A stretch of DNA of 64,000 nt from Polytrichum commune (Eukaryota; Streptophyta; Polytrichopsida; Polytrichales; Polytrichaceae). This document shows positions 14,416 through 64,000 of this stretch, piece after piece. The notes beneath the pieces were generated by a model, which worked only from the letters and a program-made list of their open reading frames with translations, had not been told where the DNA came from and made no database searches. Within the stretch, counting starts at the first letter, position 1; each line of letters opens with the position of its first letter. Location of the stretch: NCBI GenBank assembly GCA_950295325.1, contig OX485803.1, forward strand, positions 16,802,001 to 16,866,000, read 5' to 3'. The position numbers and the translations under genes were made by a program.

Positions 14416-15910
14416 TCAAGAACTTTTGAAATAGGAGTCCAAAGATCTATGATATTGCCTACCCAAGTTAGCAACTGTCATCTTATCTAAATTTCCTACT
14501 AACTTTTGAAAATTAATAATTTCATTAACACCAAAATATGAAGAGTTCTCTAATAAGAAACTACACAACAATGATGCATGACGTTTAGCATCACTAAGCT
14601 TTATTATAGGTGGAGCAACATCATCCACATCTATTGAATCTAGATCAACATCAACTTCAAAGTCTTGTGCATAATTGATTCCCAAAGTAGCATCCACAAA
14701 CTCATCAGTACTCAAATCTAGCTCCGTAACTCTTCCCCTTCCATTTGAATGTATGTATGGATTGACATCTCATCATTACCCAATTGCATCTTTGAAATCA
14801 AAGCACCAAGTTCATTTCATTCTTTTTGCATTCTATTCTTCTCCCTTTCATCAACCAGGGAAAAATCAACATTCCATGTTGTAGGTAATGTACGCACCAT
14901 CCTCCAACAAAATCTAAGTATTTATGCATCTAGCTTACTCTATACTTCATAACTCCACATGATAGCTTGTCTGATCTTGGGCACCACCTTCCTTAACTCC
15001 TTCAATGTAGCATGATCATATTGTGATAAAATCCACTGCAAAAATTTCTTCTTGTACTGAATTTTGAAAGATGTTCTTATACCTTGTTTTAAAGGTTGAA
15101 CTACATTTGTAACATTGGGAGGTATGAATACCAAAGTCATGTTACTCAATTCCAAGGTTACAACATCTGAAGATGCACTATCCAAAATCATAATCACCTT
15201 TTGATTTTCGCTTTTGAACTGATTGTCGAGCTGCAAAATCCAAGCTTCAAATATACCCCCCTTCATCTAAGTTGGTTTATTTGAGTGCCACTAAACATAC
15301 TCATGAGGTTGCCACCTTCCAAAACATCGTGGTTCCTTAGACATATAAATCACAAGCAACTTCAACTTATCAGTCCCAATTGAATTGACAACAAGAGCAA
15401 GTGTTACACGCTCCTTCTGTAACTTCCGACCCTTTACATTCCCTTAAGCTAATATTTCATTGGGATGTGCTCTGAAATACAATCCAATCTCATCCATATT
15501 TTCAACATCTTCAGGCACATAATCATACAAAAAATAGGATGTTGACTCATTGTTTGGACAACTCCATCAGCATCAACATCACCACTTTCACTGTGTAGAT
15601 ACACTTTGCAGAATAATGTGAGGATAAATCAATACAATAGTATCAAGGCATGACCAATAGTTAGTCTAGCCTTCTAGAGATAAGATACGGACTTACCTTA
15701 TCAGTGATAGAAATGAAACATATACAAAGTTTGCCTTGCAATAGTGGTCATTTTCTTGAATTTCTCCAACCAACCATTTGAAATCTTGAAGTTTTTGTAC
15801 TTTTCAACCTTGATTGGATCATTTGCAAGCTTTGCTATAAAAGAAACCCGAGGAATTACAGCCTTTCGCATGAGTATTTCATTAGTCAATGTCCCATCTT
15901 TACTTCCCAC
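14416..15910 (-). pseudogene. pogo/Tigger-type transposase (CENP-B-like HTH plus DDE), disrupted
   Basis: Minus-strand relic of a cut-and-paste transposase. From the N-terminal side: Tc5/CENP-B-type DNA-binding segment (15910-15701: NEILMRKA, FKISNGWLEKFKKM); the first catalytic block ENMDEIGLYFRAHPNE (about 15500); the second block MILDSASSD, where the usual DN is DS; then PPNVTNVVQPLKQG, where the usual third catalytic Asp of QPLDQG is Lys; and a C-terminal tail with DAKRHASLLCSFLLEN (14715-14416). In-frame stops occur in the middle part (after PNEILA, and before MKGGIFEAWI). It cannot make an active enzyme. Family assignment is firm. Confidence 0.88.
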
Positions 15911-16219
15911 TAGTTTACAAATTAAAAAGACAAAAAGTTCTTGAAATCAATACAAATCCTTTATTATTTTAATGTTTATGCAATCAATTGAAGAAAAAAG
16001 AATAAAATCATTAGCAAGCACATTCAAATTGCAATGAACTTCTCACATGCTTGAACCATGTCATCAAGGCATTTTCAAGTTTGGGGTACTTGGGTCTCTA
16101 ACTCTCTGGACATCTTTGGTAGCCTCACTTTGAGTACCCACAATTTTGATAGAAAAGTTGAGGACCTAAGAAATTGGGTTCGTCTTCACCTCTTTACAAA
16201 ATGTATTGTTAAACTAAGG

Positions 16220-21090: not shown

Positions 21091-22481
21091 ATGAATCTTT
21101 AATAGTTGTTGATTGTAGCAGTATTGGTACTGAATCCTTTATTTGCAATATATGGTCAAGGTCGCAAATCATTCTCAACTTCTACCTCAAAGATTGATAC
21201 TATAAGCCAAATGCTTTAGGACATGCATCATGTGATTAGAATTATTCAAGCAAAGCATGTGTAAGTTTCAGGACGGGTCCAAAAAGTGGCTCATAATGTG
21301 TTTCAAAATAGTGACCCTATGAGATTGACATTAAGGAAGTTCAGAAACTATCCCTTCGACTTTGTGATCTATTAGAGTTATGCCCCCTTCCCACATGACT
21401 TTATCAAATAACCAAAGTCTTTCTTAAAAATCGGGTAAAGCTTTCTCGATTATGGCAAAGGCATTCAACTATCCCAATGCATCTGCAAGAACTTGCTCTG
21501 GAGATTTTCGAGTAGGTTTTAGTTAAGTAGTTTTCACACATGTTCATTGTTTTATCTACCAAGCAATGACATGTTGGATAGTTTTTGTCCCGTCCCCAAA
21601 TGCCTTTCTATTTATCTATCTTACCATCGGTTTGTGTTAATGAAGCTCCTCGTGTCCTCAAAGCTAAGACTAAAAGCAACCAATGACAAGGGTGGGAGGT
21701 GACACTTTTAAAGGTCCTGCATTCTTGCCTCATGTCAAGGTACCAATGGGAGGGTCGGTGCTCGAGGCTTAAAACCTCCACTTTAAACCATTCCACATCA
21801 TTTGCCAACTAGGCTCGGCACTAGATAGTGTCGATGGTGTGAAGGCCGTGATTTTAGAACAAACTTTTAGGCTTAGCTAAAGTCAAGTGAGAAGGGGGCA
21901 TAAGTTTTTCAAAATCAACATAAAATCATGCAAGTTGTCTTAATGCTTAATGATCAAACACAAAGAGTGATGTCATGATCTCTAAAATCAGCTTTCTTGC
22001 TTGTCCTATTAGAATGGGTGGGCCAAGCTCGCCTTGCGTAGGCCAATCTAGGATTTAGTACAACGGATCCCATGCACATACCCTATTTTAAATCTTAAAA
22101 TTATCTCAAATTTTAATAGATGAAAAAAACAGGTTCCAAAATTTCACCCAAATTTCAAAATAGGCTCCAATACACAACAAAGCTCTTAATAATAATAAAA
22201 AGTTTCTCAAAGAAGGATCATACCCACAGTGTTGTCCCTCTTTGAGAGACAATATGCATAACTCTATTCGCTCCATATTTCTAAGAGGCTTGGTGTTGCT
22301 TGGAATTAACTTCCCAAGTTCAATGCTTGGGTGCCAACTCTCTGTATTATCACATGTGTATGTTTTGGTTTAAGTCATTCTAGGGTAACAATCACATATG
22401 TCAAATGCTTATATGTTACATTTGTTTATAAGCCTTAGAGAGAAGAGGAACAAAGAGGACAAAACTCAAAGTGACTGCAGT
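21091..22481. other. Intergenic, possibly further decayed gypsy sequence
   Basis: Lies directly downstream of the gypsy relic. No RNase H, integrase or LTR end could be identified; the minus frame 21608-21808 is unassigned. Confidence 0.35.
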
Positions 22482-22669
22482 AATTATCCCAATTAGTGTG
22501 TGTTATTATTTGGAGTTACGGAGTGCAATAATTTCTTACTCAAGAGCTCATATTTTACTAACGAAAGTTCAATAAGTTGTTTGAACATTATAGAACATAA
22601 GTACATTCTCATTAAATAATTGTAGCAGTGCATAATTCCGAATACAAACACGTACTAATTGGGATAGTC
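22482..22669. mobile_element. Short MITE, ATTTGGAGTTA family
   Basis: Ends AATTATCCCAATTAGTGTG and its imperfect inverse CGTACTAATTGGGATAGT. The inner TIR is TATTTGGAGTTACGGAGTGCAA, with the internal TTGTTTGAACATTATAGAACA phrase. Non-coding. Confidence 0.75.
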
Positions 22670-22797
22670 AATATAGCAATGAAATGGCAATTACCAAAAT
22701 AAAACTAAAGATGCAACTATGTGTGACTCTAACTTTGTTGTATGTCTATTGTAGAAATGATAATTATGCTATAAGAATATTAAGTTAAGTGGTTGAA

Positions 22798-23133
22798 GGG
22801 GAGGCCACGCACATTTGGAAACATCCGATTTGAAACGGAGTTTGGTAAGCCAAGGTACAAGAATGTTGGCCTTGACATAAACCTAACTTCGAGGACCTAG
22901 GTTTCGAGGTTGGCCCCACTTTTATTTGTTAGAACCATCCATTTTCAACTCCGATAAAAAAAACCGCCATCTTCGATTGGAATTGAAAACATACGATTTT
23001 ACTCATTAAAAGAGGGACCGACCTCAAAACCCAGCTTCTCAAAATTAAGCACACATCATGGCCATCATTCTTTTACCTTGGCTTACCAAACTCCGTAACA
23101 AAACCAGTGTTTTCGAACGTGTGTGACCTCCCC
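22798..23133. mobile_element. 336-bp MITE with about 70-bp TIR (GGGGAGGYCAC)
   Basis: The left arm has GGGGAGGCCACGCAC and ACGGAGTTTGGTAAGCCAAG. The right arm is the inverse complement with CTTGGCTTACCAAACTCCGT and GTGTGACCTCCCC. The terminal bases resemble those of the hAT-like family (GGGAGGTCAC), but the flanking octamers do not match, so no target duplication is claimed. Confidence 0.75.
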
Positions 23134-23336
23134 TTGTGAGAGGGGTTTTTTGGTTTTTTTCCTTGTAATCGAGAGTATTTTGAAGTTATGACAAGCCATG
23201 ACATTGTTGCTAGGTTTAGAGGTTGTTTCCTATGCAATGAGATTGAAAGATCACAACACTTGTGTCTTGTGTAGACTTATCATTGTACTTAGCAATTAAT
23301 GTGATGGGTGTGTGACACTTGTGGGATGAAGATCAC

Positions 23337-23715
23337 TACACTAAATATTGTTTTTAGTGTCACCAATTCTATTTGTCTTGCTAAATACTAATTGTAAACG
23401 GCCCATATAATGTCACCAACACTAAATGTAAACTAACATTATTTTTCTCATTCCTCGCAGAAAACAAATTACATTGTACATCTATAATATTGCAATTACT
23501 ATCACATACTAAGTGATTTTTCATTCGAATTTCATTCATCCATGACAATAACTCATTCCAGAAATGTTAGAATGCAAACTATACCAAAAGTAGATGAACT
23601 ATAAGTAAATTGAGATGACATACTTGTAAAACTTATTCAAAAGAAGTGTCATTAGAAAAGTTACCACGGTGCAATATTAAAACACTTTATGTCACTAAAT
23701 ACGATCTTTAGTGTA
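23337..23715. mobile_element. MITE with ends TACACTAAA...TTTAGTGTA
   Basis: Ends TACACTAAATATTGTTTTTAG and CTAAATACGATCTTTAGTGTA form an imperfect inverted repeat around 379 non-coding bases. The ends resemble those of the element at 12039-12253, but the interior is different and longer. Confidence 0.65.
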
Positions 23716-24031
23716 CTCCTTTCTAGACTCTCTTGAAGGGTTGTTAGTAGATAACTTGATGGACCATGACTTCACAAACAATTATGTAAAGCTTTGAAAA
23801 TTCATGGAAATTGAGATGAAATTTGAAATATAAAAATCTTTGGATTTGAGATCAAGCAACCAGTGTTAAAGAGCGGATGTAGGATGTTGGGACCATGTTA
23901 TGGATGTTGTGGTATATTCAATGTGGGTCTAGACACTTTCAACAAACCTCCAATATAGGTAACAAATCGCCTTGATACTAATATTGAAATCCTTGATTTA
24001 ATGTCCATTTTGTCAGTTCAATGCTGTATAA

Positions 24032-24533
24032 GGGCCACTTCACACACGAGACTGAGAGCCCATGACCATTACACTTCATGCACTCTCATTGGTGGAAAAG
24101 GTGGAGCTGGTCCAAGTTCGCTTCCTACTAGTACGCTTGAGGGACCAATGGAGTATGTGAATGCAAGATGGATGTAAAGTCTACATGGATTCCTATATGG
24201 CATCAAATGGATCATGTTTCATGGTCACTTTGATTATTTTTTAAAACAATCTTTTGGAGGTAGGCCTAGGACAAAACCGGAAGACTATGGCATTCCAAAT
24301 GCTCATAACCGTTGATTTATTCTACTTTATAATGCGTGGGGACCTGCATGGATAGAAATTCATTGAAATAGCATTTGGTTGAGGGCCCGGTCACATATGA
24401 CTTCACACTGCACTTGAGGGCATGTGACCACACTACATGGTTTTGGAAGTGTCTTGGGACGGCCTTTGGATACTTTCTTTTGGACTCTCACAATTTCATG
24501 ATCGCAGCTCTTGGCTCCTGTGTGAAGTCGGTT
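24032..24533 (+). mobile_element. Tourist-like MITE family A, copy 2, altered right end
   Basis: The left end is GGGCCACTTCACACACGAG after TAA. The interior contains GGAGTATGTGAATGCAAGATG and CATCAAATGGATCATGTTTC. The right end should be GAAGTGGCCC-TAA but reads GAAGTCGGTTTACACTAA: the last bases are replaced by a duplicate of the adjacent element's end (24542 onward). Confidence 0.85.
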
Positions 24534-24726
24534 TACACTAAGGGCCGGTTTACACTACAGTGGAGAAGTCCACCGGTCATGAAAAAAAGGGCGTTTCTCA
24601 ATTGTGATTGGTCGAAAATGCAACTCTTGACCGGTGGGTGTTTACACTAGGTGAAGAAAACAATGGTGGTGAACTTTTCTCATGGATGATCAAATGACAT
24701 GGCCACCTACATGGCGGCACTTTTTG

Positions 24727-24810
24727 GAGTTGGGCTTCTCCGGAGGAGGAGTTTCTTGTCCGGCCTCAAGAGGCCGGACAAGAAACTCGTCCTCCAGAGA
24801 AGCCCAACTC
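24727..24810. repeat. 84-base near-perfect hairpin
   Basis: Arms 24727-24767 and 24770-24810 are inverse complements at 39 of 41 positions, with a two-base AA loop. The arms begin GAGTTGGGCTTCTC and end at the loop with CCGGCCTC/GAGGCCGG. It lies inside element B but is not at its ends. Confidence 0.95.
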
Positions 24811-24893
24811 AATAAAAAATTAATTTTCAAAAACAAATTTGGACCGTAGATTTCAGATCTGGTTTTTTTCAAAACCTAAGGTGTTGGCAAGCT

Positions 24894-24917
24894 TCTCTCT
24901 CTCTCTCTCTCTCTCTT
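24894..24917. repeat. (CT)n microsatellite
   Basis: Short CT run inside element B. Confidence 0.9.
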
Positions 24918-25756
24918 TGTTGTAGTAGCTCCTTAGCGATTTTTTTTGTGCAATTTTTTTTCGCAATGGCATTATATGATCCAAGAAGAAATTGTGACAC
25001 ATATCCACTTGGCCGGTCAAATTTCCACACCACCCTCTCCTTGCTCCCAAACAAAAAATATGCCATCATCATAATTGAAGCATTATGGTGATACATGATG
25101 GTTTTTTGTATCACCATAGTTGAAATGATAAAATACTTCAAAACCAAGATCATAAGAGAGCACAAAATCTCTCTTCTTCGATTATCCATGATTGAAGATC
25201 AAAGATAAGAAGAGAGAAATTGATGAGGATGATTAAGAGGAGAGCATGTCTTAAATAATACCAAAGAGTAGTGCTTTGTCCAATGTGTATGGGTTTTCCC
25301 CTCTTCATTCTTAAACACCCAAGGAGACATTTATTTCCTACATGGGCCAAACTTGACAATTGGCAATCTGGCAATTTTCATTATCTTTTGAATAGAATTG
25401 AACATTATATTACACAATTCTTATGAACACAATTCTTGTTGAAATTTTTTGATACAATGTGAATGTAGAGAAGTATGGTTTTTTATCACAAAAAATCTTC
25501 ACCATTAGGTGAACTTCTCTTCACCGGTGGACTTCTCCGGTGGACTTCTCCGCTAAACTTCTCCTCTAGGTGTTTAGACTTCAACCGGTCAAGACTCCTT
25601 AAGAAATATTTTATTGCCTTTAATTCTTCTCCGGCACATCCACCATTTGCCTCATATAGCCATGTCTTGGCCAAACATTCTTGACCGACCGGAGGCCTTC
25701 TCCACCGTAGTGTAAACCGGCCCTAAGTAAGGGGGCAAAAGAATCACAAATTTGAG

Positions 25757-25800
25757 GATTATTATTATTATTATTAAAAGAAGAAAAAGAAGAAGAAGAA
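25757..25800. repeat. (ATT)n then (GAA)n microsatellites
   Basis: An ATT run followed by a GAA-rich run just 5' of the retroelement fragment that follows. A simple repeat of this kind could mark an insertion edge, but no target duplication was found. Confidence 0.85.
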
Positions 25801-25907
25801 ACTAATGGGATCCCTTCCCATCCCTCACCCTAGTCAAGGCTTATTTAATTAATGCAAACTTTTACATTGTTGGTCTCGAATTGGCAACCCAACTGCAATC
25901 AGGTAAA

Positions 25908-26545
25908 TATAACAAAACCCAACTAAAACAATTTATCCCTCCCCCTTCACAAACCGACATAATAAAGCAGTCTGGAAAATCCGTAAACTCCTCGTTTCAA
26001 ATAAAATAACCAGGCACTATATACTTATGAATGCAGGCATATACAACGATTCTCCACAAGAAAACATAGTACCCACATGGCTACTCCCATGCACATGTGA
26101 CACCCAAAGATGTCAATGCAATGCTAGGCTCAAACCCGACATACTATGCGTCATTGGCCACCCATACAATTCCCCGCCCCCGGAAGCACCCACACCAAAA
26201 ATCACTATACAATTTATAGAATTTACATACTGTAATGACAGGTTCTCTGCCGAAACAAGAGAAAGGAAAATCACAAAATATCAACCACTCATTAACAACC
26301 TCATTGCAAGAGGCTGGAATGCAGCTCCACTCATAGTATTAGCATCAGGTGTCAGAGCCACAACTCACATCCCCTCGATGAAAGCACTAGAAACAAAGCT
26401 TAAACTTCCTACATCACAAATTAGGAACACATTCAAACAAATCAACATAATCGCCATACAATATGCACACTCAATTCTTATCCACAAAAGAAGGATAGAA
26501 AACAAACAACCTATCAATAATCTACAAAACCATACTCAATCCTAA
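25908..26545 (+). pseudogene. C-terminal part of a non-LTR retrotransposon ORF with restriction-like endonuclease
   Basis: An open plus-strand frame of about 212 codons follows the stop ending at 25907; the first ATG is at 26027. In order it shows HNKAVWKIRKLL...RHYILMNAGIYND, a Cys-rich segment LLPCTCDTQRCQC, then a PD-(D/E)xK-like core: LKPDILCVIG, IQFIEFTYCNDRF, ERKITKYQPLINNL, GWNAAPLIVLASGVRATTH. Asp of KPD, Glu of FIEFT and Lys of TKYQ fit the RLE catalytic set. The order zinc-like Cys cluster then RLE is that of the C-terminus of R2/Dualen/RandI-type elements, as I remember them. No reverse transcriptase precedes it (stops upstream of 25908), so this is a 5'-truncated copy. The frame is intact through the endonuclease. 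The match to plant and algal elements is from memory. Confidence 0.7.
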
Positions 26546-27882
26546 GGACCCAACACACCCCCTCCCAAAGCCCACGTCACCGGTTAAACCGGTAAAAGTT
26601 AATAATTACTAAACATAGTGTCTACTCCTTGAAAAGGGTGAAGTAGTATCACACCCAAAGCCATTACCTTGGGGTATGCCTAAGGATGTCCTACAAACAG
26701 ACACTCTATTCACTCCGGCCCCCAAAGGGGGCTGGAGTTCTTCTTCTTCTTCTTCTTCTTCTTCTTCCCTCCCCCTCCCCCTCTCCCCACTACCTTTATC
26801 CCTTGCCCTATATACATTGTGTTCATGCAAGGAGCAATGAGAACCAAGGAATATTAGAACAAATTACTACTATATCACGATGATTATGGTTTATACTTTG
26901 GAGCACACTATTAACGAGATAATCCATGCTAAATTAAACATTGAGGATGATACTGTAAATATCAACTCACACTATATAACATCATAGCAAGAAACAAAAT
27001 TTGACATCTTCTTTAGTGATTGTTTGTTTTTTACAAACAAATAATCTCTCTTGTAGAATTTGTTGTGCTCTTTCCATAAACACTAAGATCGCCTTGGAAC
27101 TATTAGGCAGTTGAACGCAGTGACCATCCAAAGTTCAACTACATCTACCTCCAAGAAACAGTTTTATGTCAACATTTGATGTTTTCTCCCTCAATACTTG
27201 GACTCAAGAAGTGAGATAAAGCTATTTGGATTCGTAATCTCAAATGCTTTCAATCAATACCTTACATGCAACTAGGAGTGTAAGAGATGAGAACAGAGTG
27301 AGTGGTAAAAGATACAAGTACGTGTAAATACCATTGCAAGCTATGTTCATGCATGATGTTGTATAGTGTGGGTCACACTACAGGGATGCAAAGGGTAAGC
27401 CACACTATACGCATGCCCACATTATTCAACATAAATGATGTAGATATCATAAGAAACACTCTTGATTAGAGTTATCAACACCTCCACTCTTAAGGGTATT
27501 GTATTTGCAACAACCACATGAAATGTACTAACTTCCAATAACCTTTCACCTCTACTCTCTAAAAATGTGATACACAAAGAATGATTTACCCTCTAAATCC
27601 TCCCCTTGGCGGTTGGCCATTTTGTATTAAAAACGTCATTATTTATAGTACCTTCAACTACCCAATTACCCAACATTGAACATGAAACACATGTTTGGAG
27701 TGACACGTGTGGTTTTCATGATTCTTTGTAAATCCAATCTTTGGGTAAAAAATCATTCTTCACCCCAAAGGCTAGCATGCACTCTCGTGTGTGGATTCAT
27801 TCTTGTTGGATGATATACACATGGTTATTTTTGTTGCTTTGCACTAAAGGACCTTAGTACTTAATTTGTGTAGCTAGGTATC
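26546..27882. other. Intergenic with a C-rich simple repeat
   Basis: Possibly contains the 3' tail of the retroelement just upstream. A TTC tract followed by C-rich sequence is at 26738-26788; the poly-Glu frame opposite it (26609-26830, minus) is an artefact of this repeat. No gene supported. Confidence 0.5.
26738..26788. repeat. (TTC)n and CCCCCTn simple repeat
   Basis: About ten TTC units followed by CCCTCCCCCT-type sequence. Confidence 0.9.
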
Positions 27883-37011: not shown

Positions 37012-37965
37012 GAAACGAAATTGATTTTTAAAGTCTTAGAAGTCGAAAAGGTTAGTGATATTGAAAGCACATCAGGAGGGTGTCAAACTAGCTAATTTCT
37101 CTAGAGTGGCGGAGTTCGTTAGCTTCCGTGAGATAGAGGCTAATGTCAGTCTTGGTGGTCCAATTGAAAGAAAGACTTGAGGCTCCCTAGGACTACATTC
37201 TCAAAGAGTGTTGGAAACGTATCTCTAATGGACTTATATAGGGGACATTCCAACATGAAATGTGCCTCATTTTCAATTACATTATAGGAACAAAAGTGGC
37301 ATAGTCTAGTATCTCTATAGGTAGGGAAAGGTGACCATAGCCTAGTTTCACCGGCTAGTCCACGATTCAAGGTGGGGTAAGTTGCAATGATCTTGCATTG
37401 TGGTCGTGTCAATGGTTGCTTTCAATACAATTTACATTTGTATTTGAGAAAATCCTTCGGGTGGAAGTTTAATAGTTTCTTCCCTAACAGATGGAAAGAG
37501 TTCCACTCTTTATCAAGAATAGCCTCCTTGGTATCATCATATGCTTGATGTGGTTGGGTTGTCATGGGTGTCCTAGTGAGATAGACCCCATGATATCTTC
37601 CACATGGTTGTAAATTTGTGCTAGGTGTTAAATCCATTTTCGGCCAAGTGTTGGGAAAGTGAGGCTACTTTACTGACCAACCAAGAGTGGGATAGGTGGG
37701 CGAGCCATTGTTGAAAGCCTATAGTGAGCTTGAGAGTGTGGAATTCTATGGGAAGTTCTCCAAATTTGTCCCACAAAATAAGATAGGTAACCTAAGAACA
37801 CACTTTGACGTGAGACATCATATGCAACATCATGCCCTTCAATGAGAGTTTCCAAAGTCGCCTCCCCAAATTTCACTTCCATATGTGAAAGTTGGAAGCA
37901 CCAAAGCCTTGAATAGATATGATTTAAGTTCCCAACATGTGGCTTTGAACACCTACCATAGGGGA
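37012..37965 (-). pseudogene. LINE relic: end of reverse transcriptase and C-terminal zinc-binding domain
   Basis: On the minus strand, upstream part (about 37960-37880): LFKALVLPTFTYGSEIWGGD, a segment typical of the reverse-transcriptase C-terminal side in many LINEs, followed by stops and a frameshift. Downstream part (37412-37146): CHFCSYNVIENEAHF, MLECPLYKSIRDTFPTLF, a C-x2-C...H...C zinc-binding domain, in one open frame. The 3' sequence down to about 37012 is also shared with the copy at 58565-58838 (about 80% identical by eye). The 5' part is missing beyond 37965, where an opposite-strand endonuclease relic begins. Confidence 0.82.
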
Positions 37966-37974
37966 GAGTGGGGT

Positions 37975-38430
37975 GTGATAAAAACCTACCCTCTGTATGT
38001 TTTTTTATTGCACACAAGATCATGCCAATGCCTTGCCATACTCAAATCCGACATCCTAATCATCACCTCCCTAGAGAAAACCACACACTATACCACCGTA
38101 TACCACCAAAAACTCCAACCTTCAATTATTTGAACTTACCTTCTACCGAGACTGCAAACCCACCACTGCAACTCAATGGGATATATATATACAAATACAC
38201 ACACTCAAATACCAAACATAGGTGGATAGTCTAGAAGATGTTGGATGGTATGTCACTCACCATCCTCATAGTAAGCATCTGAGGAGGCGTCCACATGAAC
38301 AATATCATCAATTTATTTGAACAATACTACATCCCCTAATGCCTATCCATGCATGCATGTAACAAATTCACTTAAAAAACCATTGTATCCTACCATACTC
38401 ATGCTCAACAAACAAAACTATAAAACCACC
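37975..38430 (+). pseudogene. Second, broken copy of the restriction-like-endonuclease retroelement
   Basis: Plus-strand pieces align in order with the 25908-26545 frame: HTRSCQCLAILKSDIL (for CDTQRCQCNARLKPDIL), then after a frameshift QLFELTFYRDC...HTLKYQT (for QFIEFTYCNDR...ITKYQP), then GW, then in another frame ILIVSI and GGVHMNNIINLF (for LIVLASGVRATTHIPSM) and KTIVSYHTHAQQTK. Catalytic Asp, Glu and Lys equivalents are still visible. At least two frameshifts and three stops. The match is at peptide and partly nucleotide level (TGTCAATGCAATGC / CATGCCAATGCC). Confidence 0.65.
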
Positions 38431-38455
38431 AACAACTAGTAAGTTGCACATAACC

Positions 38456-38744
38456 AACCACCAAAACCCCGTTAATAAATCCTGAAATAGGATGCCTTCT
38501 TAATTAGCTCAAGTAAACAAATAGCCAACCTTGGGATTATGATAACTTTTTCTTCAACTAATCACACAAGTCAGTCTTCCTAATTGTGTTTCCTATTGAA
38601 CCCAAAATGATTTTGAAAATAAGAGGAAGTCTTGTCACATGATTCCAAATCTCTAGGACATATCTCACATTTATGACACCATTGTACAAGATGAGGAGAC
38701 CGAAAGTGTCATTTTTGAGGCCCACATGCATGCCTTAGCTCCTT
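38456..38744. other. Intergenic, nothing recognised
   Basis: Short A+T-rich spacer after the endonuclease relic. Confidence 0.4.
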
Positions 38745-43279: not shown

Positions 43280-43798
43280 CGGGGAGAACCGGCGGTTAGT
43301 TACAGATGAACTGGTTGAGTTTGAGAGATAACCAGTTGAAGTTGGAGACTTAAGGAGAACTACCGATCATTTTAGAGGAATCTATAGAAGAATATACCTC
43401 AAATGAACAAGTCCTGCTTGATTCGATATGCTTACTAGCATATCGAATCAAGGGCTTATAGTTTAATTGGTTCAAATGCTTTTCTGAACCTTTGGCTAAA
43501 AGACACAATGCTCGGCCCCGGCCCCATATTCCAGCTTATTTCCGCGATATATCTGCGTTTTACTTATCGAATTGAACCATAGGAAAAAAATCTACAGGGC
43601 TATCACCTTCTTTGGCAAGATTTTTCAACACAAAAATGGTTGAAAACCAATTGAGGCTAAAAACACCCACGCCATGGCACGAGGCACACCATTGCAAGCA
43701 TAAGGAAAGATCAGGATAACAAACATCAACATGTAACCGGTTGGACTTGCAAACACCACTAAGGTCTCAACTGATTGTGAGTGCCCAAAAATCTCCCC
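43280..43798 (+). repeat. 220-bp GGGGAGAACC repeat, copy 5, split by a 290-base insertion
   Basis: Outer parts match the other copies (GGGGAGAACCGGCGGTTAG at the start, ATGTAACCGGTTGGACTTG and CAAAAATCTCCCC at the end). Between about 43409 and 43700 is sequence absent from every other copy. See the insert entry. Confidence 0.78.
43409..43700 (+). other. Unidentified insert with a perfect 15-bp hairpin and an organelle-tRNA-like segment
   Basis: Begins with a perfect inverted repeat (43417-43431 and 43438-43452, CTTGATTCGATATGC, 6-base loop). GGGCTTATAGTTTAATTGG follows from 43452; this matches my memory of the 5' end of plant organelle tRNA-Ile(CAU) and includes a box A-like TAGTTTAATTGG, but the match stops after about 25 bases and no anticodon or T arm follows. 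It could be an organelle DNA fragment, a SINE head, or coincidence. Confidence 0.4.
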
Positions 43799-55957: not shown

Positions 55958-58226
55958 CTACGCAGGGTCAACTGATGTGGAGGCAACTGGTTCGGGAGCA
56001 GGAGAGACACTTGTTGGGGCTGGTATTTGACCAGTGCCGTCAACCCTAGCACGAAGCCTTGGGGCTGGTCGAGCAGGCTTTGGTAGCATCCGACCCTTCT
56101 TTTCAAACCATTCTGGAGTAAGTAAAGCTCGAAGGCCTAATTCATTGTAGTGTACTGTTTTCACACTTCCCCCTGCAGCTTCAACTGCTGCTTTTGCACG
56201 CTCAGATACCCTGCTCACCTGATACCATGCACCAAATTACATCAATACCTTCACAAATCCAAAAGTAGCTAAGCCAACACAAGTCAGATTTTTTTTAGAC
56301 AGTGAATATACTTGTCAAGACCAGTTGGGATTGCAGAAAATTGTAATGCAGGATCCAAAACATAATCCTAAATACCTCTCCAGAACTCTCATGAGGAAAT
56401 CATATGCAGTAGACTCCATTACATTAGGCAAGCCGTATGTGTAGCATGACTCAACTTACGCTGACCCCAGCAACCAATGGCCATTTTGAAATGTACTTCT
56501 TAATGAAGTCATGATAGTTACTGATGAAACAATTTGCAGCAGTCAATGCAAGATGTAATCTCCCATCTTTCCTGAACTTGTGAAGTGACTTCCAGTGAGA
56601 AAGGTTGATACTAAAGTAATGAAGCAAAACCGGATTGAAGATATCATTACCTCAATTTGGAGAGGAAGGGAAAAGTTTCCAGATCCTTGTCCTAGTAGTT
56701 TCACTCCATCTTTCAACTTCTTCCCTAGAGCACCTGCATCCTGCACAAAGACACAAATTCCTTCACGCTTCAATTTTAAGGAGAAAGCAGGTGAACCTTT
56801 TCCCGAACCTACCACAGCATTAGTGTGATAATTGTTTGAAAATTACTCCAAGAGACAACTAAAGTTTCTCTCAATCTATTATTCACATAATCATACTCAG
56901 GTTGACGATGATAAAAAGTGGGATTAATCATCTCTTCACTTCACCATAACCTCATGAAAGTTGCTGCAACCTGGTAAATGGACTAAGACTAGAGTGCGTA
57001 CATGTCAAACAATTGTGAAGGAATTAAACCAGCCTTCCTATATCATATTGGATAAAATTCTGGTGGGGCAGCTAGACAAATGCACTCTAGCTTTCTTACT
57101 GTTATATTCAGAACATTTCCAATCCTTGCCTGCAGCGGAGATTTTCTTCCTTCTATGCACCCACTTTGCGGATGTCAGGATGTCCTTACCTTTAATGTTT
57201 TCATAGTGATAAGCTGAGAAGTGTCGATGCGGCCCTCCCTTGCTAAAGCTGCTATTTTATTCAGGTTGACTTCCTGGAAAAGTCAATCAACATCTTTTTT
57301 CCTCAGTGGATCGTGAGAATCCAATTCATGTGACATTCATTCATTCATTCACAACCAACTAGCTAGAGAATGGACGATTATGAATATGTTGATGGATGAT
57401 GTATATGTCCACCGGAAAGCATCGGATAGCATTATCCGGAAACATTTCTTCATTATCTTCTCCAGAACCACTTTCTCTCGCTGATCTGCCACTACCTATC
57501 GTGATGCCAACATAAGTAATCTTCTCCAGGTAACTTGAGTTGAATGTAAAACCATAATGCAAAGTGAGGCATCTGGTGCACGAGAACCGAACATATATAC
57601 TGCTTCTAAGTCGCTTTGAAACTCCAATCCCCTTATAGGATTATGCCCTACTAGCCTACCCCCCTCTCACTTCGGGGGATCTATAAGGAATGGCACAACT
57701 TTCGTCACATTTTCCAATCCAAGCATATCAAAAAATTAAGGCTTAAAATTCAATTCCTGCGCGATGTGTGAACCATGAAACCATCGAATATTCAATCAAA
57801 TGCTTAGCATACCTGAAAGGAATTACCAAACACATTTGTAAATCCTCTTTTCGGGATCCTTAAACGCAAGGGTGTCTGCCCACCCTCAAACCCTAATCGA
57901 GGGCCTCGACCATTCCGCGCCTTCTGACCCTTATGACCACGCCCCGCGGTCTTCCCCTTGCCAGAGCCGATCCCTCGACCCAACCTCGTCTTCTGGTGCC
58001 GCGAACCAGGATTATCGTGAAGTGTGTTGAGTGCAAGAAATCCTCCCGGGGGCACTACTCGCGGCTTTACGCGCTCCTTCGCTGGTGACACTGCCTTCTC
58101 CCCCACAATAAGAGATCCTGCGCCTCCCAGAGATCCATCCGATGTCATACTACTGTATCGAGCTCCATTTTGCCCAATTATCCTACGTAATGCTTCGGCC
58201 ACGTTGAAGCCCTTAAGGCGATACAT
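55958..58226 (-). CDS. uL15m: Mitochondrial large-subunit ribosomal protein uL15 (L15), four exons
   Basis: Nuclear gene for protein L15 of the mitochondrial large ribosomal subunit, where the family binds 23S-type rRNA during assembly. I read four exons on the minus strand, all phase 0: 58226-57813, 57273-57190, 56740-56651 and 56218-55958 (stop included). Each donor is GT and each acceptor is AG, for example CAG/GTATGC and TTTTCCAG/GAA. The joined product is 282 residues. Residues 1-26 are basic and end in ARYSS, which suits a mitochondrial presequence. Residues 67-110 are the Gly/Arg/Lys-rich N-terminal part of L15 ([26 protein letters not shown]), then [18 protein letters not shown] (112-129). 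Exons 2-3 give [11 protein letters not shown] and GVKLLGQG; exon 4 gives [14 protein letters not shown] and [12 protein letters not shown]. The open frame extends upstream to a TTG at 58277; I chose the ATG at 58226 because the presequence follows directly. The family is clear; mitochondrial rather than plastid targeting is inferred. Confidence 0.95.
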
Positions 58227-58421
58227 CCCTAACCAAGGTGATGTATGTCGTCCACGCTGATTAGTAATATCGGCCAAAAAATACGCAGGTTCACGTCAAT
58301 TGTTCCATGGTGAGGTGTTCGTGCATTATACTCGGATGGCCATTGCCATAACCAGACAATCGAATGCAGCAAGGTAGAGTAAACGCATCGTCTTCGATTC
58401 GCATCCAAAACACTGAGCGCT

Positions 58422-58430: not shown

Positions 58431-58564
58431 ACCCCAGATGTTGTCGTCCACGACTCATTTTCGTTCGTCCGTCTATCTGTCCGTTCGATGGGTATTTTCG
58501 TCCAACGATCCCACTTCGTCGGAGGGGTTTCATTTCTTCCGCCGGAGAATCTTCGGCCGTCAAT

Positions 58565-58838
58565 AAATGCAGTTGAAAATGAGGTAGATTTCGTATTGGA
58601 ATGTCCCTTATATAACCCCATTAGAAATAAGTTTTTATCACTATTTGAGAACATAGTTCCAGGGAGCCTTAGGTCTTTCTTTCAATTAGAGCATCAAGTT
58701 GACATTAGCTTCTATCTCACGAAGACTACCACACTCTGCCACTGTAGAGAATTAACTAGTTTGACACCACCTTAATGTACTTTCAGTCCCAGTAGCCTTT
58801 TCAGCCACCCGGACTATTAAATCAATCTTATTTCATAG
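58565..58838 (+). pseudogene. 5'-truncated LINE end (zinc-binding domain and 3' tail)
   Basis: Plus-strand ENEVDFVLECPLYNPIRNKF and LFENIVPGSLRSFFQLEHQ match the C-terminal domain of the LINE at 37146-37412 on the other strand. The zinc-binding His of ENEAHF is Asp here. Nucleotide similarity starts at about 58565 and continues past the stop to about 58838 (TTTGACACC, AGCCTTTTC, TTATTTCATA). It sits 340 bases upstream of the uL15m start, pointing away from it. Confidence 0.82.
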
Positions 58839-62893: not shown

Positions 62894-64000
62894 TCACGTC
62901 AATACATCCAGTCTGGGCTCAAATGGCAACACATGATCATAATGATGGCCAGGGCCATTAGGGAGCCACTGCCACACTTGCTGTGATAGATCATACATAA
63001 GAGCCCGTGAACTGAGAAAGTAAATCACGTTCCCTAGGCCTCGGCACCGAAAATGTGTCGGCCGTTTCCACTCTTTGCAGAACTCCTCCAGCAGAGCGGG
63101 TGGCATGGTCACCACATCTTCCCACACTCCACCTCCATCCTTCTCCCGAAGCTCCCACAATTTGATTGCTTTGGGTTTTGCAAAGTGACTGTCTTCAGAT
63201 ATTCTTCCAACAATCAGAAGAGATCCTTGGCACTCAACAAGAGAAGGCGGAGCTTGGAAATTGAGTAACATGGCTGATCGAATCTCCTCCCTCCAAACTG
63301 CCAGTTCGATATCATAGGCATGAAGAATCAATGTTACAGGCCAGCCCCGAGTGGCAGATAGATTGTAAAACAACCCATTGCAATAAACCAGGCGATGGCT
63401 TGTGAAGGATCCCAGTGCCCTGCCTGTAATCTCCCAAGTCTTGGTTGCAGAATCATAAACCTCAGTGTTGGACACTAGGTCCTGCCTTGACTGAGTTCCA
63501 ACCACAACAATCTTGTAGGTCTTTGTAATTCTGTCAACCACCATTCCCAGGAGATGCACGCGCTTTATGTACAACATACTAGGAAGATCTCTCCATTCAG
63601 TAGTCAAGGGATTGCAAACACATACAACAGCAAGGCGATTCGGATATGCAGCAGAGCATAGCAGCCCCCCAGCTGATGCTAAAGTATACATCTTGGACGG
63701 ATACTGAGGCACTGGTACATTGTGCCAGATGCCAAGTGAGGGATTGTATGCCATGGCCAGCATCTCAGTCCCTGTCTGAACATGGATGGAAAATAGCCAA
63801 AGTTGCTGGGAGGACACTGTGGACCACAACTCCAAAAACGAATTTGATTCCAACAGATTCTTCCAGCGCTTGCATACAGTTCGGAATCGGAAGAAACTTG
63901 GGACTGGCAGACATGCAAGAGTTCTGTCAATCAAGTCCTCTGGCAATCCGCTCCATATCCGGTCTTGCATTGGCATCATAACCAAACGCTCTTCCTCCCG
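62894..64000 (-). CDS. F-box/kelch-type protein, 5' end beyond the window
   Basis: Probable substrate receptor of an SCF (Skp1-Cullin-F-box) E3 ubiquitin ligase. The frame is uninterrupted from the window edge to a TGA at 62894-62896. The first ATG in the window is at 63979 and would give 361 residues, but seven codons upstream (REEERLV) are also open, so the true start probably lies further right. Counting from that ATG, the F-box spans about residues 6-50 (IWSGLPEDLIDRTLACLP, FFRFRTVCKRWKNLL). The rest is a beta-propeller-like region with kelch/FBA-style phrases: CNPLTTEWRDLPSM, TEVYDSATKTWEITG, LYDLSQQ-type blades near the C-terminus and a final QVWQWLPNGPG. The overall pattern recalls the Arabidopsis At5g15710/At3g61590 type, from memory only. 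No intron is needed. The substrate cannot be told from sequence. Confidence 0.88.
   Translation of the reverse strand, partial: REEERLVMMPMQDRIWSGLPEDLIDRTLACLPVPSFFRFRTVCKRWKNLLESNSFLELWSTVSSQQLWLFSIHVQTGTEMLAMAYNPSLGIWHNVPVPQYPSKMYTLASAGGLLCSAAYPNRLAVVCVCNPLTTEWRDLPSMLYIKRVHLLGMVVDRITKTYKIVVVGTQSRQDLVSNTEVYDSATKTWEITGRALGSFTSHRLVYCNGLFYNLSATRGWPVTLILHAYDIELAVWREEIRSAMLLNFQAPPSLVECQGSLLIVGRISEDSHFAKPKAIKLWELREKDGGGVWEDVVTMPPALLEEFCKEWKRPTHFRCRGLGNVIYFLSSRALMYDLSQQVWQWLPNGPGHHYDHVLPFEPRLDVLT

Follow-up and report, generated by a model that had tools for sequence, protein, structure and literature searches.

The endonuclease (EN) of plant L1 and RTE elements is an N-terminal APE. The R2 group of LINEs (R2, HERO, R4/Dong, NeSL/Utopia and CRE) carries a restriction-like endonuclease (RLE) at the C-terminus. 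According to PMC5678591, three features mark a LINE RLE: helix 1 opens with H and K (RH in R2Bm); the catalytic lysine has moved into the second helix, where it is the first K of KX2KY; and GXW comes after strand 4, a feature that LINE RLEs have in common with Prp8.

Utopia is placed in animals, amoebae and oomycetes (PMC4640811), CRE and Dualen in cryptophytes (PMC12747079), and Dualen in Chlamydomonas and its relatives (PMC8226300). A 2022 review gives the LINEs of land plants as L1 and RTE only (PMC9033089); in flowering plants nearly all are L1, RTE occurring in several species (PMC3747384). In PMC9033089, plant L1 and RTE elements are described with EN, reverse transcriptase (RT) and in many cases RNase H, and with tails of (A)n or (GTT)n. 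The excerpts of PMC5348765, PMC7650587 and PMC9477723 add no plant RLE LINE, and none from a land plant is named among the literature matches listed; as Repbase and most subscription literature lie outside this scope, that silence is not proof of absence.

The window analysed here, a whole stretch of 64 kb, contains an open frame that we read, with a probability of roughly 0.87, as the end of such an element: the 5′-truncated 3′ part of a LINE with a C-terminal RLE, in a land-plant chromosome. The frame and its assigned motifs are as follows.

25913-26545, + strand: open frame of 210 codons, putative C-terminal RLE of a LINE protein (by motif core and block score)
25955-25966, + strand: RHNK, putative start of RLE helix 1 (RHN is invariant in the three solved R2 domains compared)
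26090-26119, + strand: Cys cluster CTCDTQRCQC (CxCx4CxC), part of a stretch of about 25 residues that R2 lacks
26132-26140, + strand: KPD, putative first catalytic motif (by motif)
26216-26227, + strand: IEFT, putative second catalytic acid, corresponding to VDVT of R2 (by motif and spacing)
26267-26281, + strand: KITKY, an instance of KX2KY with the putative displaced catalytic lysine of LINE RLEs (by motif)

The frame runs from stop to stop, the 5′ stop being a TAA at 25910-25912. A preliminary description of this DNA had recognized the frame, but began it at 25908, 5 nt early, and gave it about 212 codons. Resemblance to R2 begins near 25949, and at least 198 codons of the frame are unbroken. 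None of 2000 local dinucleotide shuffles reached 210 codons (the longest had 206), while two of 60 whole-window shuffles held an open run of at least that length; the frame is unusually long for its local sequence and less so for the whole 64-kb window, that is, only partly unusual. It is the motif set, rather than frame length, that bears the weight of the RLE call. The two window-wide shuffles favour reading the frame and its motifs as an accident of A/C-rich sequence poor in stops, a reading on which the motif controls below also bear.

The order of motifs in the frame is RHNK, CTCDTQRCQC, KPD, IEFT and KITKY. The R2 group, as represented by three R2 proteins, likewise has RH(N), KPD, a hydrophobic-acid-hydrophobic-Thr motif and KX2KY. 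All but the first of the frame's five motifs had been picked out in the preliminary description and are indeed present; its term PD-(D/E)xK-like is apt for the core, except that its lysine occupies the displaced position of LINE RLEs and does not form a classical ExK. Two of the published marks, the helix-1 RH and KX2KY, are in the frame, and the third is not: unlike the R2 group it has no GXW beyond strand 4, where SGVRATT stands instead (26345-26365). The D of YND (26042-26050) is a candidate for the D/E at the end of strand 1, the strand assignment coming from low-confidence models.

Two inserts set the frame apart from the three R2 proteins compared. From RHN to KPD there are 59 residues, as against 33-34 in R2, so that helix 1 and KPD are separated by about 25 additional residues, CxCx4CxC among them. 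The two catalytic acids have 26 residues between them as against 12, or 14 extra. The Cys cluster had been placed before the PD-(D/E)xK-like core; its position is within the RLE itself, after helix 1 and ahead of KPD. This is not the LINE CCHC knuckle, whose form is CX2-3CX7-8HX4C and whose place is upstream of the RLE (PMC5678591). The frame contains no match to the knuckle form, whose expected region lies outside this truncated copy. The cluster may be a small metal-binding insert, possibly a zinc-binding one.

Core pattern. The motif core was written as [RK]PD-x10-30-[DE]-x12-20-KX2KY and sought in the window and in simulated 64-kb sequences, of which 300 had the composition of the window and 300 the local composition. 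It matches once in the window, at the frame, and in none of the 600. When the pattern was loosened by dropping the leading R/K it matched 8 times in these simulations, and by dropping the second lysine, 10 times. The spacing had been widened to cover the frame's 26 residues (12 in R2), so the pattern is not fully blind.

Block score. The R2 comparison set was the RLE stretches of three solved structures, 9nl3, 9nl2 and 8gh6, the last of which we take to be the R2 of Bombyx. Five conserved blocks, picked by eye from the R2 alignment after the frame had been seen, were scored with free gaps of up to 60 residues. The frame scores 60.7, a value reached by none of 3000 shuffles (mean 20.7, maximum 52.3) and by none of 2000 permutations of the R2 columns (maximum 50.0). 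It ranks first among the 80 ORFs of at least 80 aa (next 26.3) and first among 1139 window pieces (next 49.3), and the result holds when any one block is omitted (worst case 3/500). The third block falls on EAPTPKITIQ and not on IEFT; we assign IEFT as second acid because of its form (I-E-F-T against V-D-V-T) and its distance to the lysine, which is 16 in the frame and 17 and 19 in R2.

Homology searches. Standard searches gave nothing significant: phmmer of the frame against PDB had no match at E 10, BLASTP paired it with R2Tg at E 8.5, a three-sequence R2 HMM (HMMER) ranked it 13th among 692 window ORFs at E 8.4, and HHalign against R2 gave E 0.16, with KITKY on KVRKY and the remaining C-terminus in register. 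Pfam returned for the frame only a sub-threshold L_protein_N match (E 0.076), which we attribute to chance. AlphaFold2, run twice without an alignment, produced models of too low confidence to use (pLDDT 36.5 and 35.6). Gap-penalised searches may fail because the frame has two inserts relative to R2. This failure, like the whole-window shuffles, is what a chance product would lead one to expect; against chance stand the motif core and the two types of block-score control, none of which was matched at random, and we consider it extremely unlikely. The frame is best read as an RLE, its motifs standing in the order described for LINE RLEs, and the preliminary description of a truncated retroelement end with an RLE of LINE type gains support from that order and from the block score.

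The splicing factor Prp8 bears a related RLE, of the same fold family and likewise with a displaced lysine (PMC5678591), and a pseudogene fragment of Prp8 would account for these features. Prp8 lacks the second lysine of KX2KY (PMC5678591), which the frame has, and there is no sequence match: the phmmer search covered PDB, for which PMC5678591 names Prp8 entries. That search rules out only a close Prp8 copy, because it misses R2 too. We regard a Prp8 origin as so improbable as to be negligible.

On the 5′ side, there is neither an ATG nor an AG splice acceptor in frame before RHNK, the only in-frame ATGs being at 26027 and 26378, so the frame is probably no self-standing gene. We scanned 29 stop-free frames of at least 38 aa on the + strand from 21500 to 25930; none matched an RT family of Pfam, as expected for 5′ truncation. 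Weak Pfam matches to T4_Cef (E 0.013) and Hema_HEFG (E 0.041), in one frame each, are to unrelated families and were taken as chance. The copy differs from the R2 group in that no RT is present in it, and in its land-plant host. Since it has no start or acceptor before RHNK and no RT attached, it is probably dead.

The 3′ side and the flanks hold the following features.

25936-25946, + strand: candidate left copy of a target-site duplication, 11 nt, TCCCTCCCCCT (direct repeat)
26546-26737, + strand: probable 3′ untranslated region (UTR) of the element, 192 nt after the stop (fold with tail, z -2.4)
26712-26738, + strand: terminal predicted hairpin of 12 bp with one G-U pair, ACTCCGGCCCCC/AAA/GGGGGCTGGAGT, adjoining the tail
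26738-26767, + strand: (TTC)10, element tail or target microsatellite (repeat)
26766-26776, + strand: candidate right copy of the target-site duplication, 11 nt, TCCCTCCCCCT, directly at the tail

Of 200 shuffles, 197 fold less well than the 3′ stretch and tail together. Stem-loops of at least 11 bp are no rarity in the window, which has 38 such entries when overlapping ones are included. One at 43417-43452 has a perfect 16-bp stem and a 4-nt loop.

The 11-nt repeat occurs in the window at these two places only. Shuffles of the left zone shared at least 11 nt with the right flank in 37 of 5000 cases, as did 4 of 793 window zones, a figure that includes the zone(s) of the candidate itself, and a pyrimidine-rich flanking repeat of this length could be chance. 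Taken at face value, the repeat delimits an inserted piece of 25947-26767. A (GAA)n tract at 25778-25800, inverted relative to (TTC)10, lies about 145 nt left of the candidate 5′ junction. We dropped this tract as an inverted 5′ end of the element, the sole further similarity being 73% over 22 nt. A DNA-transposon-like unit at 24537-25728 ends about 185 nt left of the retroelement frame; it has 42-nt inverted ends (90% complementary) 1108 nt apart and an internal inverted repeat at 24721-24816 with 47-nt arms, 91% complementary.

An intact frame would also suit an exon of a domesticated host gene that uses an RLE, and the stretch of at least 198 unbroken codons speaks for it. The missing ATG and AG acceptor before RHNK argue the other way, as do the element-like 3′ UTR with hairpin and TTC repeats that follows the frame and the second, broken copy that probably lies 12 kb away. 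We judge a host exon very unlikely and retain the truncated LINE end.

An origin of that copy can be proposed as follows. A full-length element would use its RLE to nick the target DNA; the element RNA would be held via its structured 3′ end, with the hairpin adjoining UUC repeats, and a reverse transcriptase encoded upstream would start at the nick and copy this RNA, the process of target-primed reverse transcription. Were copying to halt early, only the last ~200 codons and the 3′ UTR would be inserted, and a short duplicated pyrimidine stretch would flank the insert. A truncated insert with a hairpin, TTC repeats and a flanking repeat is the residue that such an early halt of target-primed reverse transcription would be expected to leave.

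Copies of plant L1 and RTE LINEs are also found 5′-truncated in plant genomes, as is this one; it has an RLE-like domain and a (TTC)10 tail, and so falls outside L1 and RTE.

Two kinds of parent may be considered. One is an element of Dualen/RandI type with both APE and RLE, derived from green algal ancestors or relatives. Dualen and RandI of Chlamydomonas and its relatives are RLE-bearing LINEs of the green lineage, likened here by their description (PMC8226300, PMC3747384; architecture from PMC3636483 and PMC4640811); the region that could show their APE, RNase H or RT is missing from this truncated copy. Dualen is reported in all the Chlamydomonas relatives of PMC8226300, so that LINEs with an RLE have precedent in the green lineage, and the RandI elements of Chlamydomonas have partner SINEs (PMC3747384); on the other side, nothing in the window bears on an APE or an RT. 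We hold such a parent possible, at a little under even odds.

The other is a single-ORF parent of the R2 group (HERO, R4, NeSL or a new clade) favouring pyrimidine or TTC microsatellites as targets. Some HERO families insert into microsatellites, as do DongAg and DongBg (PMC4640811, PMC3636483), and in this copy the final (TTC)10 adjoins a pyrimidine run. A repeated tail might also come from template slippage, as for UnaL2 (PMC3747384), and the tail is visible in one copy only. This parent too we put forward tentatively, giving it somewhat less than an even chance.

A probable relative of the truncated LINE end lies to its right in the window.

38005-38483, + strand: probable second RLE copy, decayed and frameshifted, firm only over about 38021-38058

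BLASTN of 25800-26800 against the window gave microsatellite matches and 38022-38058 (E 0.015); with TBLASTN the frame matched 38014-38064 of the window (E 0.22), ahead of a match at E 1.2. The match there sets TRSCQCLAILKSDILII against TQRCQCNARLKPDILCV. A gapped DNA alignment joins ~26110-26544 to ~38022-38484 with a score of 80, while the next unrelated place among 274 windows scores 47 and none of 2000 shuffles exceeds 76; without the seed, the rest of the alignment is not significant (117/2000 shuffles). To the right of 38470 a search for a copy of the 3′ UTR was negative (it scored 36, and the best of 200 shuffles 37). By these alignments the match near 38.0 kb is a probable older, broken copy in the same orientation. 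The frame is the more intact of the two, in keeping with the intact, low-decay copy first described. Under a decay model of an unconstrained frame, with an assumed one indel per 10 substitutions, the chance of an intact 198-codon frame is ~0.12 at 3% change and ~0.03 at 5%; the intact frame favours a young copy, in this model only.

Relatives were also sought in collections of prokaryotes and viruses. Among viral contigs, a homology search found no relative and the 3′ hairpin-tail pattern had no match; degenerate peptide patterns of the frame gave none, 1 and 5 loci there in separate searches, and 21 loci in genome contigs. These 27 pattern loci were rejected as relatives, the best TBLASTN E with the frame being 0.62. 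TBLASTN of the frame gave three records among plasmids (best E 4) and five among phages (best E 1). No relative was found in these collections, which, being prokaryotic and viral, says little about plants.

The copy may represent a land-plant lineage of RLE LINEs of its own outside L1 and RTE, marked by a Cys-rich endonuclease module and an end of hairpin plus TTC repeats, algal-derived or horizontally acquired, and recently active; we regard this fuller account as rather more doubtful than likely. An RLE-bearing land-plant LINE, if true, would extend the oldest LINE type to further hosts, have a bearing on the timing of the replacement of RLE by APE in the green lineage, and supply a plant relative for the R2 class, which is described as under development for gene insertion. 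It would not change the accepted working of such elements.

Rfam at gathering thresholds found nothing in the window, and ARAGORN found no tRNA there. The region had been called otherwise decayed, which is too simple, the window having a long F-box/Kelch frame and a split gene.

55961-58295, - strand: split nuclear gene (at least two pieces) encoding the mitochondrial ribosomal protein uL15m (protein matches)

The piece at 57807-58235 (- strand) has many uL15 matches, bacterial ones first (2.8e-23) and 6xyw third (9.6e-23), among the 60 of 65 listed. That at 55961-56236 (- strand) has six: 6xyw (3.7e-27), 9evs (4.8e-27) and four others from 7.2e-10 to 6.7e-9. We take 6xyw and 9evs to be the Arabidopsis and cauliflower mitoribosomes, and 8a22 and 7pkt to be green algal structures. 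By its uL15m gene the window most probably belongs to a land plant. A 368-aa frame at 62894-64000 (- strand), which runs off the right end of the window, has F-box, Kelch and KIB1-4 beta-propeller matches and is probably a host gene.

Remains of other elements occur as well. A Tc5/pogo-like transposase relic lies in pieces at 14943-15946 (- strand), with DDE_1 (E 2.7e-15) and HTH_Tnp_Tc5 (E 6e-5) matches. Frames at 37149-37421 (- strand) and 58431-58772 (+ strand) are related (65% identical over 46 aa), the former with a weak zf-RVT match (E 0.12), and are probably C-terminal relics of another LINE family.
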